Below are positions 684 to 5,289 of a DNA stretch of 6,654 nucleotides, in pieces. Both the position numbers and the translations under genes were made by a program. This DNA comes from Gemmatimonadota bacterium (GTDB lineage Bacteria; Gemmatimonadota; Gemmatimonadetes; Gemmatimonadales; Gemmatimonadaceae): positions 1 through 6,654 of the forward strand of contig CANJOX010000180.1 in NCBI GenBank assembly GCA_947475795.1, written 5' to 3'. Below the pieces are notes generated by a model. That model made no database searches. It saw nothing but the letters and a program-made list of their open reading frames with translations, and was not told where the DNA came from. The first letter of the stretch is position 1; each line of letters begins with the position of its first letter.

Positions 684-1883
684 CTATCGGCGCTGGAGCC
701 GCGGCGCTTGCTGCGTTTCCTCAAAGCCGTAGAGGAGCCGCACCTCCGATTTTGTATAGACGGGGCCAAAGGCCCCAAGCGACAGCAGCGTTTCGCCGGT
801 CTCCTGACTCACGAACCAGAGCTCGGGTGTCTCCCCAACGTCGAGCTGGACGCGCCAGCACGGGAACCGACCGCTGTAGGTCTGCACGGTATCGACGCCG
901 GCTACGTGCAAATTCAGAAATCGCGGGACGCCGAGCGACATCGCCATGTCGCGCGACTCGCCAATCTGCGCCACTGCTACGCTGCCGCGCCACGTGGCGG
1001 TCAGCGGCAGGGCGCGGAGGAGGAGTCGCATCGCTTGCTCGGTGTGCACGATCGGCCGCGTGGCGTCGAACGCCGTGGTGGTCCGGAGCATCTCGCGGGC
1101 GCGAAACGTGGAGGACGACCGTTGCTCGCGGCGCACGAGGATGGAGTCCACTTCGGTCAGCGTGGTGCCGGTGAAGCGCTGACGCACCACCCCGTCCTCC
1201 CCGATGTGATACACCCGGGACATGGGCTGCAAGGAGGTGGCATCGAGCCACAACGAGTCGACCCGCAGGGCGCGCTGCGCGGCGTCGGGTTCGCGCAGTT
1301 GCCATCCGTGCTCCGTCGTGACGATGAGCCAGAACGCGCGTGCGCCCACCAACCGCCGGGTGGTCTCTTCCTCGTACACGGCGTGAGGCAGCAGGTCGTG
1401 AGAGTCGCTCGCCGAACTACGCACGTAGGTGCGACGGCCCGGGTGAATGCGGGAGGCGTCGAGTCCGGTCACGGGCGCGAACGCCGCGACCGGCCGCGCC
1501 GGCGCGCCTTGGGCCCCGGCTAGCGCAGGCCACGGGGCAAGCAGGGCGACGGGGTTCGACGTGATCGGTGGTGTGGTCGGTGACGTGATCGGTATGGCGC
1601 GGGGCGACGCGCCTGGAGTCCGCCACTGTTGCCAGGACATCGGGACGACCACGCCGAGAGCAGCGGCGACGCCGAGGCGTAGCCACCAGCGCGACGCGCG
1701 ACGGCGCGCGAGGCGAGTTGGGGCGCGGTCGTCGAGAAGGCGGGGCGTCGCGGCGCTAGACGCGCGACTGGCGTGGATCCGTGTCAGAAGGGCGTCCGCC
1801 TCGAAGTCGGGCGTGCCGTTCGTCAGGGTCGCGACGAAGGTGCGCAGCGCGGGGTCGAGCACTGGGTCGATTATGTCGCTCAT
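684..1883 (-). CDS. Single-pass membrane protein, putative anti-sigma factor partner of the ECF sigma factor
   Basis: 399 residues. Residues 1-64 are polar and probably cytoplasmic. Residues 66-84 form one membrane segment (LGVAAALGVVVPM core) preceded by an Arg-rich stretch (58-69), which predicts N-inside topology. A Pro/Thr/Ser linker (about 98-111) leads to a large, probably periplasmic beta-rich domain (about 150-388) with motifs such as VDSLWLDATSLQP (208-220) and ELWFVSQETGE (354-364), reminiscent of DUF3108-like folds; I cannot name the family firmly. Position directly after an ECF sigma factor, with an ATGA overlap, is the classic place for an anti-sigma factor, so binding of the sigma factor by the N-terminal part is the likely role. 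However, the first 100 residues contain no cysteine, so it is not a zinc (HxxxCxxC) anti-sigma. The start is firm: GGGAG lies 7 bases upstream and the ATG overlaps the sigma stop. Translation is probably coupled. Confidence 0.75.
   Translation of the reverse strand: MSDIIDPVLDPALRTFVATLTNGTPDFEADALLTRIHASRASSAATPRLLDDRAPTRLARRRASRWWLRLGVAAALGVVVPMSWQQWRTPGASPRAIPITSPTTPPITSNPVALLAPWPALAGAQGAPARPVAAFAPVTGLDASRIHPGRRTYVRSSASDSHDLLPHAVYEEETTRRLVGARAFWLIVTTEHGWQLREPDAAQRALRVDSLWLDATSLQPMSRVYHIGEDGVVRQRFTGTTLTEVDSILVRREQRSSSTFRAREMLRTTTAFDATRPIVHTEQAMRLLLRALPLTATWRGSVAVAQIGESRDMAMSLGVPRFLNLHVAGVDTVQTYSGRFPCWRVQLDVGETPELWFVSQETGETLLSLGAFGPVYTKSEVRLLYGFEETQQAPRLQRR
1561..1596. repeat. Three imperfect 12-bp tandem repeats in the linker of the membrane protein gene
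   Basis: On the plus strand the units are GTGATCGGTGGT, GTGGTCGGTGAC and GTGATCGGTATG. Read on the minus strand they encode the Thr/Pro-rich linker (ITSPTTPPITSN region) just outside the membrane. The 12-base period keeps the frame, so unit gain or loss would only change linker length. Confidence 0.6.
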
Positions 1884-2452
1884 CGTAAGTCTCCCACGAG
1901 GCGTCGTAACTGGTGGAGGGCGCGGTGCAATCGGACCTCGGACGTGTTGACGGTGATGGCGAGTAGCGCGGCGATCTCGGCATGCGCAAAGCCCTCGACC
2001 ACGCGCAGCACGAAGACCACACGGAGGCGCTCGGGCAGCGTGGCGAGTGCGGCGAGCGCGCGCGCATACGCAACCGGGTCCCCCTCGCGCGGCTCATCGG
2101 TGGGCACGTCGACTTGGCGATGCACCTGATCACGCCGGACCGCGCGTTGACGGCCGAGGAGCGCGGTGCGCACTGTCAGTCTCGTTAGCCAAGCGGCGAA
2201 CTGCCCGCGCTCCTCGTACGTCGCGAGCGCGTCAGGCAGGCGGACGAAGACATCGTGCACGACGTCCTCCGCGTCCGCGGGCGACGCCGTGAGCCGGAGC
2301 GCAATGGCGTACAGCCGGCGTGCGTGGACGCGATAGCAGGCGTCGAGCACGCGGGCGTCCCCCCGTTGGAGATCTGCGACGGACCATGTCGCTGGGGGTT
2401 CGATGGCCGGGGCCGCGAGGGCCGCAGGCTGCAAGGGCATTGGGGAAGGCAT
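1880..2452 (-). CDS. ECF-type RNA polymerase sigma factor
   Basis: 190 residues, the usual size of an extracytoplasmic-function sigma-70 factor. It directs core RNA polymerase to promoters of a specific regulon. Region 2 spans about residues 36-103: the YRVHARRLYAIALRLTAS segment, then DAEDVVHDVFVRL (60-72) as the core-binding and -10 recognition helices, then FAAWLTRLTVR (85-95). Region 4 spans about 133-187: ALATLPERLRVVFVLRVVEG (start near 135), then the helix-turn-helix FAHAEIAALLAITVNTSEVRLHRALHQLR that contacts the -35 element. An acidic, Pro-containing linker (about 113-128) joins the two. The N-terminus has about 25 Ala/Pro-rich residues before region 2; ATG at 2452 is used, with a second in-frame ATG at 2440, and neither has a strong Shine-Dalgarno. 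The stop overlaps the start of the membrane protein gene by 4 bases, so the two are one operon. ECF subgroup not assigned. Confidence 0.93.
   Translation of the reverse strand: MPSPMPLQPAALAAPAIEPPATWSVADLQRGDARVLDACYRVHARRLYAIALRLTASPADAEDVVHDVFVRLPDALATYEERGQFAAWLTRLTVRTALLGRQRAVRRDQVHRQVDVPTDEPREGDPVAYARALAALATLPERLRVVFVLRVVEGFAHAEIAALLAITVNTSEVRLHRALHQLRRLVGDLR
1891..1895 (-). promoter_or_regulatory. Shine-Dalgarno of the membrane protein gene, inside the sigma factor gene
   Basis: GGGAG on the minus strand lies 7 bases before the ATG at 1883, within the last codons of the sigma factor gene. Together with the ATGA stop/start overlap it fixes this start and supports coupled translation. 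It is the clearest ribosome-binding site in the window. Confidence 0.7.
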
Positions 2453-2610: not shown

Positions 2611-2702
2611 ATCTAACGCGCGCGTCTGTCGCGAGCGGACCGCACGATGCTTCACCCTGCGCGGATGGTCGGTCCGCTCGGCAACAGCAAGCCTCGTTAG
2701 GC
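2611..2702 (-). other. attC-like integron recombination site (cassette attachment site)
   Basis: The 92-bp element starts with ATCTAAC (2611-2617, fits RYYYAAC) and ends with GTTAGGC (2696-2702, fits GTTRRRY). The end boxes pair over CTAACG/CGTTAG (2613-2618 with 2695-2700). Next come two unpaired 7-base stretches (2619-2625 and 2688-2694, like the unpaired central spacer), then CTGT/ACAG (2626-2629 with 2684-2687, L-box position), then a 2-versus-3-base bulge, then an 11-bp perfect stem CGAGCGGACCG/CGGTCCGCTCG (2632-2642 with 2670-2680) around a 27-base loop. This order (R'', spacer, L'', variable stem, L', spacer, R') and the length match known attC sites, which IntI integrases recombine as a folded single strand. 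The extra unpaired base is in the right half; by the usual convention this half is R''/L'', so the site would belong to a minus-strand cassette, i.e. the LysM side. No integrase gene or second attC is in the window. Confidence 0.7.
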
Positions 2703-3123
2703 CGCATCACGCGGACGTTGCGTCGAAACAGCCCATCGCGCAACGGAACGGTCACGGCCAGCAGCCGAGTCGGACGAACGCTCGGCGCTCCTCGGTCCCG
2801 GAGCGCGCATGCACGACGCGGCCTCGGTGGCGCGGGGGGTCTACAAGCCCCGACGTCCCGAGGCGTCGCCGCTTCTTCGGCCCCAGCTGTCACGCCAAGC
2901 GGTTGGCGTCCTCGGGCCGAAGAGTCGATCGAAGGGCACGGCGCGTCCAAAGCCCGAGAACGCTCCCGGAATTCACGAGTACTTCTCCGTCAAGCTCCAC
3001 GTGGTCAGCGATTTGAAGCGATGTTATCGGTGCCGTCTGCGCCGCTCTGGGCCAGCGCTCGCCGCTAGCCTTCGAGCAGCTCCACTGCAGCGGCTCAACC
3101 TCACGCCATCGCCCACGCGAACT
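2703..3123. other. Non-coding or degraded stretch between the attC-like site and the LysM gene
   Basis: These 421 bases contain only open frames with Arg/Ser/Pro-rich translations typical of shadow frames in GC-rich DNA. On the minus strand the LysM frame stays open for 77 codons past its TAG stop, to a TGA at 2890-2892, with no recognisable domain. An imperfect hairpin (GAGCAGCT/AGCGGCTC, 3074-3096, one mismatch, 7-base loop) lies 28 bases beyond the LysM stop; without a T-run it is at most a weak terminator. I see no RNA gene. Confidence 0.45.
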
Positions 3124-4050: not shown

Positions 4051-4191
4051 TGTGTGGGTATGTGGATGAGGAAAAACGTCGGTTACACATCAAATGCATC
4101 TGAGCGGCTGCCGTGAACGGTTGGCTTGGCCACTGGAGATCCCCTCACGCGGCGCCGTCGTCACCGCCCGATGTCGAGCAAGCGCCGCACG

Positions 4192-5289
4192 CTACCCCGG
4201 CACGATCAGCGCCTTCACCACCTCGCGGTTGGCCACCGCCGCGAGCGCCTCGTTGGCCTCGGCCAGCGCAAACCGGCGCGACACCGCGTCCAGCCACGGC
4301 AGCTGCCCGCCCTGATGCGCCAGCAGCTGCACCGACCGGTGGAAGTGCGAATAGTCGCACCCCCAGCAGCCGCGGATCTCCACGTGCTTCCGGTTGATCT
4401 GCCAGTGCGGATTGATCGCGATCGGCCCGCCGTCGGTGTACTGCCCCGCCACCACCACCACGCCGCCGTCACGCACGAGGTCGAGCGCCTGCCCCACCGC
4501 CTGCGGATCGCCGGCCACTTCGATCACCACGTCCACGCCCCGCCCGCCGTTGGCGGCCCGCACCGCCGCCACGCGCTCCTCGTGCGGCAGATCGAGCGAG
4601 ACCGCCGCCGTGGCACCCATGCGCCGCGCGAACTCCAGTCGCGCCGCGGGGGCCCCCACCGCAATCACCGACTGTGCACCGGCCAGCGCGCTGAGTGCAA
4701 TCGCCGCCTGCCCCACCGGTCCCGCCCCCAACACGGCCACCGTGGAGCCCAACCGCACCCCGCCGCGTTCCACGGCATGCATCGCCGTCACGAGCCCGCA
4801 GCCGCCCGCAATGAACTGCGCCGGATCCACCGCCGTCGGCAGCCGCAGCAGCTTCACCCCCGGCTTCATCCAAATGTGGTCCGCCCACCCGCCCAGTGGC
4901 CCGTCGGCAATGCCGTACGTGATGCCATACACTTTCCGGTGCGGACAGCGCGTGGTCTGCTTGGTCACCAGACACTCGTAGCACGCGCCGCACGTCTCGT
5001 GCACGTCCAGGAATGTCACCAGATCCCCTTCGCGGAACGGCACCCCCTCGATATCCGTGATCGTGCCGCGGATCTCGGCCAGATGCCCCACCGACACGTG
5101 CCCCGGCACGATCGGGAACGGCACCCCCGCCATCCGGCCGTGATGCAGGTGCACGTCCGTGCCGCACACCTCGGAGTACAACGTGCGCAGCATCGCGCTC
5201 CCCGGCGTGAGCGTGGGCCACGGCAGCTCGCGCAGCTCGAGGGGCTGATGCGGCGCCGTCATCACGGCGGCGCGAACGGTCTGGCTCAT
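4192..5289 (-). CDS. Zinc-dependent medium-chain alcohol dehydrogenase (MDR family)
   Basis: 365 residues, normal for the family. It probably oxidises an alcohol to an aldehyde or ketone with NAD(P)+ in the cytoplasm. The GroES-like catalytic domain holds C42 and H64 (catalytic zinc), the third ligand C164 in GGCGLVT, and the proton-relay residues T44 and H47 in CGTDVH. Structural zinc cysteines are C100, C103, C106 and C115. The Rossmann domain has GAGPVG at 188-193. The second beta-strand of that domain ends in AVG (G212) rather than the Asp that marks NAD-specific enzymes, so NADP use is possible. The common GHE after the second ligand is GHV here (V65). An upstream in-frame extension to 5628 exists, but its translation is Arg-rich and overlaps the divergent gene, so ATG at 5289, giving MSQTVRAAVM, is chosen; no strong Shine-Dalgarno is visible. 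It is divergent from the M24-family gene, suggesting a shared regulator or pathway. Substrate unknown. Confidence 0.92.
   Translation of the reverse strand: MSQTVRAAVMTAPHQPLELRELPWPTLTPGSAMLRTLYSEVCGTDVHLHHGRMAGVPFPIVPGHVSVGHLAEIRGTITDIEGVPFREGDLVTFLDVHETCGACYECLVTKQTTRCPHRKVYGITYGIADGPLGGWADHIWMKPGVKLLRLPTAVDPAQFIAGGCGLVTAMHAVERGGVRLGSTVAVLGAGPVGQAAIALSALAGAQSVIAVGAPAARLEFARRMGATAAVSLDLPHEERVAAVRAANGGRGVDVVIEVAGDPQAVGQALDLVRDGGVVVVAGQYTDGGPIAINPHWQINRKHVEIRGCWGCDYSHFHRSVQLLAHQGGQLPWLDAVSRRFALAEANEALAAVANREVVKALIVPG

Follow-up and report, generated by a model that had tools for sequence, protein, structure and literature searches.

An integron attC site as the probable left end of an IS91-family insertion sequence in Gemmatimonadaceae

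The window analyzed here, a 6,654-nucleotide stretch of DNA from a Gemmatimonadaceae bacterium, contains a solitary hairpin that resembles an integron attC site in an apparently chromosomal context, and thus raises the question of what such a site is and how it came to stand there. A reading of the sequence alone considered it a lone attC, the edge of a cassette array, or a relic. Comparison with related genomes upheld the attC type and revealed what that reading had missed, namely that the site is the terminal hairpin of a multi-copy IS91-family insertion sequence (IS). We conclude that the window site is probably an integron attC that forms the left (terminator-end) hairpin of a Gemmatimonadaceae IS91-family insertion sequence with a Y2 transposase. 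The features of the window are collected in Table 1.

Table 1. Features of the window, with the strand and the evidence for each assignment
Feature	Coordinates	Strand	Evidence and remarks
attC site	2611..2702	(-), attC top strand	1L box GCCTAAC, 2702-2696; 1R box GTTAGAT, 2617-2611
Predicted IntI crossover	between 2617 and 2616		divergence of G036 and the window falls there
Left terminal hairpin of the IS91-family element (terIS position), the attC itself	2615..2702	(+)	sharp edge at AACG; copies with differing flanks
Decayed IS leader with the start of the transposase gene	2703..2880	(+)	89% identity between 2613-2879 and L077:1501-1767
Second IS fragment (transposase gene)	2868..2908	(+)	2868-2901 corresponds to L077:1962-1995; 2868-2908 to L078:1973-2013
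Candidate cargo gene, LysM-type, 308 aa	3124..4050	(-)	weak C-terminal FimV/LysM-like match, NCBIfam 14.8 bits, below the cut-off of 43.45
ECF sigma factor	1880..2452	(-)	Pfam; downstream of the attC; common to G036 from the crossover on
Probable anti-sigma partner	684..1883	(-)	by position; weak DUF3108 match, below cut-off; in the block shared with G036
Zinc-dependent dehydrogenase, chromosomal side	4192..5289	(-)	Pfam; homology to L001 ends at 4159, to L018 at 4190

Architecture and model score of the hairpin

The sequence-only reading placed the hairpin at 2611-2702, and these coordinates are correct. Both end boxes match the RYYYAAC/GTTRRRY core consensus, as it had claimed, and the architecture that it described is present: (i) R boxes CTAACG/CGTTAG, (ii) two unpaired 7-nt spacers, (iii) L arms with one extra base, extrahelical on one strand, and (iv) an 11-bp perfect inner stem. 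In the left box ATCTAAC, AAC alone belongs to the repeated element; the preceding letters differ among the copies.

Folding, which had been proposed as a check, gave an unremarkable energy, as shuffled sequences were equally stable in 24 of 200 cases for the plus strand and in 8 of 200 for the minus strand. Since the fold energy was ordinary, R1, a covariance model for attCs, was trained on 24 Gemmatimonadaceae attCs located near integron integrases (nine from G074, ten from G157, three from G018, and one each from G017 and G156), none of which comes from the element described here. R1 was made for the present analysis, and all attC scores given here are from this model rather than from the models of IntegronFinder or HattCI. 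The window site scores 39.7 bits on the minus strand against 9.0 bits on the plus strand, so that the orientation had to be corrected: the minus strand is the top strand of the attC. Under the same default filters, the maximum in the control was 18.0 bits (36 of 76 loci, 557,883 bases), and the next-best score within the window is 15.1 bits. The assertion that this architecture is hard to get by chance therefore holds on account of the model score and the conservation in relatives, and fails for the hairpin energy. A possible second attC where the anti-sigma ORF ends (686-800, 15 bits) was rejected; it lacks a GTT core, and five control matches reach at least 15 bits.

The IS ends score from 23.9 to 54.4 bits with R1, a range that overlaps that of the ordinary sites retrieved by similarity to genus-type attCs; this similarity search gave matches in 21 of the 30 genomes of the genus. 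A genome scan with R1, in which 150 candidates were scored per genome, revealed at least two sites in G036 and at least one in G001. Among close copies of the IS hairpin, a double change was found in 1 of 23 base pairs, a variation too small to count as covariation.

The insertion sequence and its terminal hairpin

Complete copies of the IS in related genomes are about 1.78 kb long, with a sharp left edge at AACGCCAGCTTCTG, which is the hairpin, and a conserved, sharp right edge near GATTGAAATTCCTATC. Two features expected of the IS91 family are found in these copies: the two ends are distinct and non-identical, with a conserved right end, and the transposase of the complete copy at locus L077 (449 aa; PF04986 and PF14319; NF033538 at 182.9 bits, cut-off 125) is a Y2 enzyme with the IS91 zinc-binding domain. 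The transposase gene has the hairpin on its 5' side. The copy in the window is decayed: it spans 2615-2908, retains only fragments of the transposase gene, and has no right end. Its segment at 2868-2908 matches about 206 bp further on relative to L077, and the window copy is therefore internally deleted.

The nearest relative of the window hairpin is another IS-borne hairpin, with an identity of 0.92. At E values up to 0.001, the window site found DNA matches in 10 of the 30 genus genomes; another copy, used as the query at E values up to 1e-5, matched 23 of the 177 genomes searched in the family. An IS91 transposase of some type is encoded in 37 of 178 genomes of the family, and in 15 of them it scores over the cut-off. 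No R1 match above 24 bits was found at 17 of 30 transposase loci, many of which are gene fragments; at the inspected transposase loci L161, L165, and L166, the left end of the IS is lost or altered. The 674 bp around the window attC had no match in the plasmid collection. For one copy (L117/L221), the flanks are far apart in relatives, and no clean empty site was found.

These sequence comparisons show that many copies of the IS have the hairpin, which scores as an attC; the hairpin of the window is an IS end and of the attC type simultaneously. Conservation of the same 92 bp in relatives as part of some other element, which the sequence-only reading had counted against an attC, was thus observed, the site being an IS end in relatives. 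Its two other counter-indications, failure of the model search and a lack of further attCs and integrases, the latter judged from related genomes, turned out the opposite way, in favor of an attC.

Two further arrangements were observed among the IS91-type elements. Loci L216 (G009) and L220 (G150) are possible miniature IS91 derivatives, in which the right end is joined to the left end with the attC and the transposase is absent. A second IS91-type transposase (356-445 bits) adjoins a low-scoring tyrosine recombinase at G031:C1:469985-471019 and 745045-746079, and the same pairing was seen in G022:C11, G059:C86, G050:C50, G176:C74, and G085:C42.

The reverse order of events has to be weighed as well: an IS91-like element could target attCs and insert beside them, so that the hairpin would belong to cassettes and would hitch-hike with the IS later. 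This would account for the four IS copies (L222, L250, L245, and L241) that bear a cassette-type attC, for the resemblance of the constant IS edge GGCCTAACGATGCTTGCTG to the conserved half of the genus attC, and for the fixed orientation relative to neighboring attCs, which also suits an IS-carried attC: a same-orientation attC lies at most 1.2 kb downstream at 12 of 33 IS-linked sites and an opposite-orientation attC at none of the 33. The comparison of the IS-linked L250 with the ordinary site L226:11859 also points this way; the similarity spans the attC (0.83) but is lost further upstream (0.64), and on recount the pair was discarded as support for an IS-carried attC, because it fits an IS arriving beside an existing attC. 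Several observations argue against attC targeting, however. In many genomes, the IS is accompanied by the same distinctive stem even where the left flanks are unrelated, and copies that have no attC neighbors in the available sequence end at the same base. Out of 33 distinct IS-linked attCs, 29 have another IS-linked attC as the closest relative among the sites examined and four have an ordinary one, a result that is favored by the sample, since many loci were fetched by hairpin similarity. Finally, no core site was found at the right ends of the copies inspected, although these flanks might be parts of split cassettes; the lack of a core site also rules out that the IS enters arrays as a normal cassette. 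Taken together, these data make attC targeting unlikely, though still a serious competitor, and we prefer the reading in which the IS carries the attC as its own end.

In its Y2 transposase with the IS91 zinc-binding domain and in the position of the hairpin 5' of the transposase gene, the element is similar to IS91 and ISCR elements, and its conserved 3' end presumably resembles the oriIS of ISCR. It differs from them in the attC type of its 5' hairpin, and we know of no IS91 or ISCR element described with such a hairpin. The terIS of ISCR is likewise located 5' of the transposase gene, according to the available text of PMC13393415. In sul4 modules, attC sites predicted by HattCI were reported, as data not shown, at the end of or right after the gene of the IS91-like ISCR28 (PMC12772301); the accessible portion of that report presents no crossover evidence, and its sites lie at or after the gene end, whereas the attC of the present IS is 5' of the transposase gene. 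IS1111-attC elements and group IIC-attC introns are also mobile elements tied to attC sites (PMC12444791 and PMC8876359, from the sections available). They insert into or beside an attC, whereas the present element appears to carry one as its end. In addition, IS1111-attC elements have a DEDD transposase instead of a Y2 enzyme, and a group IIC-attC intron is a ribozyme with a reverse transcriptase, whereas the window has no Rfam match up to E = 1 and the full copy encodes a Y2 transposase. No description of an IS91 element ending in an attC was found among the papers listed in the literature searches, from which subscription journals were mostly absent.

The junction at the predicted crossover

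Genome G036 carries positions 622-2628 of the window at 99.35% identity. Identity was counted separately on the two sides of the predicted crossover: from the GTT onward, 299 of the first 300 bases are identical, whereas the 90 bp upstream have an identity of 0.61 and the sequence further up 0.63 (for 200 random pairs, the mean is 0.61 and the maximum 0.69). At this junction, G036 has an ordinary attC of 67.6 bits, located behind genes for a MazE-like antitoxin and a PIN toxin, and the genome encodes an integron integrase over the cut-off (C144:7475-8410). By this comparison, different attC ends are therefore joined to the same DNA at the predicted IntI cut point, G|TT: the alignment shows the window attC connected to the sigma-factor DNA exactly there, and the other attC in the near-identical stretch of G036. 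The pair can be considered a natural experiment on exchange at a single chromosomal attC. The dehydrogenase side of the window has no match in G036, and the difference is therefore more than a simple cassette swap, or G036 is incomplete. At its other boundary, near 622, the sigma/anti-sigma block common to the window and G036 stops abruptly; an ORF of G036 near this boundary resembles, by eye, an IS3-type transposase fragment.

Similar comparisons were made elsewhere. The queries of the cassette search started at the core site, and the positions of the breaks were judged from separate upstream and downstream identity counts. The IS-linked loci L114 and L115:1835, the latter an attC with an IS remnant, share 0.82 identity in the 90 bp that precede the crossover and 1.00 in the 300 bp that follow it; compared with L140:17586, an ordinary attC of G157, they have 0.61 and 0.62 upstream and 0.77 downstream. 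The IS-linked L112 and the ordinary L147:13427 have 0.60 upstream and 0.74 downstream, with the alignment running from 37/39 bp on. Two cassettes elsewhere thus stand behind both IS-borne and unrelated ordinary attCs.

These junctions bear on two further explanations. In the first one, the hairpin is a rolling-circle terminator that resembles an attC by convergence and on which IntI never acts. IS91 and ISCR elements do end in secondary structures called terIS (PMC13393415, in the text available), and an attC at most 1.2 kb downstream is absent at 21 of the 33 IS-linked sites, with a full GTTRRRY core in just three of these 21 and GTTCG as a common flank instead. Convergence would explain neither why the window and G036 differ exactly at the crossover nor why cassettes behind ordinary attCs also stand behind IS-borne ones, and we consider it very improbable. 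In the second one, the junction arose by homologous recombination or mis-assembly at a repeat, and the window is uninformative on IntI. IS ends and attCs are indeed repeats, and the unmatched dehydrogenase side would fit such an event. Yet the break falls on the crossover and a similar pattern is seen in L114, L115, and L140; moreover, since G036 has no IS hairpin at the junction, no long shared repeat is seen at which the sequences could have recombined or been mis-joined. An origin of this kind appears just as improbable. The data are consistent with IntI catalysis on the IS-borne hairpin.

Neighboring genes and a possible route to new cassettes

In the orientation of the attC, the gene order in the window is dehydrogenase, LysM-type gene, IS remnant, attC, and sigma factor. 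The site shares with integron attCs and gene cassettes the core boxes, the spacers, the L box with an extra base, the model score, the crossover junction, and the toxin-type cassettes at the corresponding loci of relatives, and differs in that it forms the end of an insertion sequence and that only an IS remnant lies between the gene and the attC. The LysM-type ORF ends 422 bp upstream of the attC, and no core site was recognized on its 5' side, either by eye or as an R1 match. Compared with a one-gene cassette with core sites at both ends, the arrangement has the 3' attC, a 422-bp gap between gene and attC, and no recognized 5' core site.

A protein search with the LysM-type product revealed nine relatives: one with 95% and six with 64-69% identity along the full length, the six including proteins named for Quisquiliibacterium and Terrarubrum, and two with 33-34%. 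No match was found in 16 related genomes. Searches of the order of G016 (300 genomes) and of the class of G001 (295 genomes), run with no positive-control genome, detected no full-length match, although one may have been missed; short C-terminal matches occur in four genomes of each of the two larger sets. The protein had no match in plasmids, and in viral contigs two stretches fit a pattern, neither of them confirmed.

The DNA around the dehydrogenase is 96% identical to L001, the closest relative on this side, and 95% identical to L018, both from Gemmatimonadota genomes. In L001, about 930 bp past the same dehydrogenase, a DUF5615 toxin-type gene is followed by an attC of 54.6 bits; the search that found this site detected no attC in L018, L002, or L023. 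A stretch of about 200 bp upstream of the toxin-type cassette of L001 (approximately 1512-1712) is 68% similar to one in L276 (9573-9774) that precedes a different toxin-type cassette; this is possibly a shared landing region. The dehydrogenase of L002 is 93% identical to that of the window, and L002 is filed as Candidatus Kuenenia stuttgartiensis, possibly a mislabeled or mixed genome bin.

How genes first gain an attC and become integron cassettes is, to our knowledge, unsettled, and a transposon ending in an attC would provide a concrete, testable route. On the proposed route, the IS would move by rolling-circle transposition ending at the attC-type hairpin, and its landing would deliver an attC, which IntI may then use to take up or exchange cassettes. 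Once the IS body had decayed, the gene on the transposase side would be left with the attC behind it, that is, as a cassette. The window looks like the last of these stages, with the LysM-type gene, the IS remnant, and the attC, and in this respect its LysM-type gene upstream of an IS-derived attC resembles a nascent cassette. L115 shows an intermediate resembling the window, and L120 shows the finished version, in which a cupin-domain ORF ends 66 bp before an IS-derived attC; 44 bp of aligned IS are retained there, and further attCs lie to either side.

A more tentative possibility, to which we give somewhat less than even credence, is that an attC has become the terminator of an IS91-family transposon, which thereby works as a cassette factory. 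If it is true, each insertion of the IS would plant an attC beside a host gene, where IntI could then load, swap, or excise, and rolling-circle read-through could carry off whole cassettes and stop at the next attC. A transposon ending in an attC would connect IS91/ISCR transposition with integrons through a single DNA site, and solitary attCs scattered outside arrays would be accounted for. A practical caution concerns attC finders, whose output may include IS91-type ends.

The suggestion that the site points to cassette traffic in this lineage was borne out: integron integrases over the curated cut-off are encoded in 93 of 179 genomes of the family, in addition to the toxin-type gene and attC of L001. 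Gemmatimonadota are among the phyla listed as integron carriers in the available text of PMC8618304, and a literature search on integron attCs in Gemmatimonadetes or Gemmatimonas returned nothing. Several integron loci of the family have features of their own. The layout is 'inverted' in L138 (G074) and L140 (G157), where the attCs lie 3' of intI and share its direction. The integrase locus L137 (G139) has a long near-perfect hairpin with CGCAGAG repeats at 16066-16199, which by eye is not of the cassette type. In L113 (G031:C1), tandem cassettes near an integrase occupy 10775-13705, with units of about 606 and 509 bp that are more than 99% identical.
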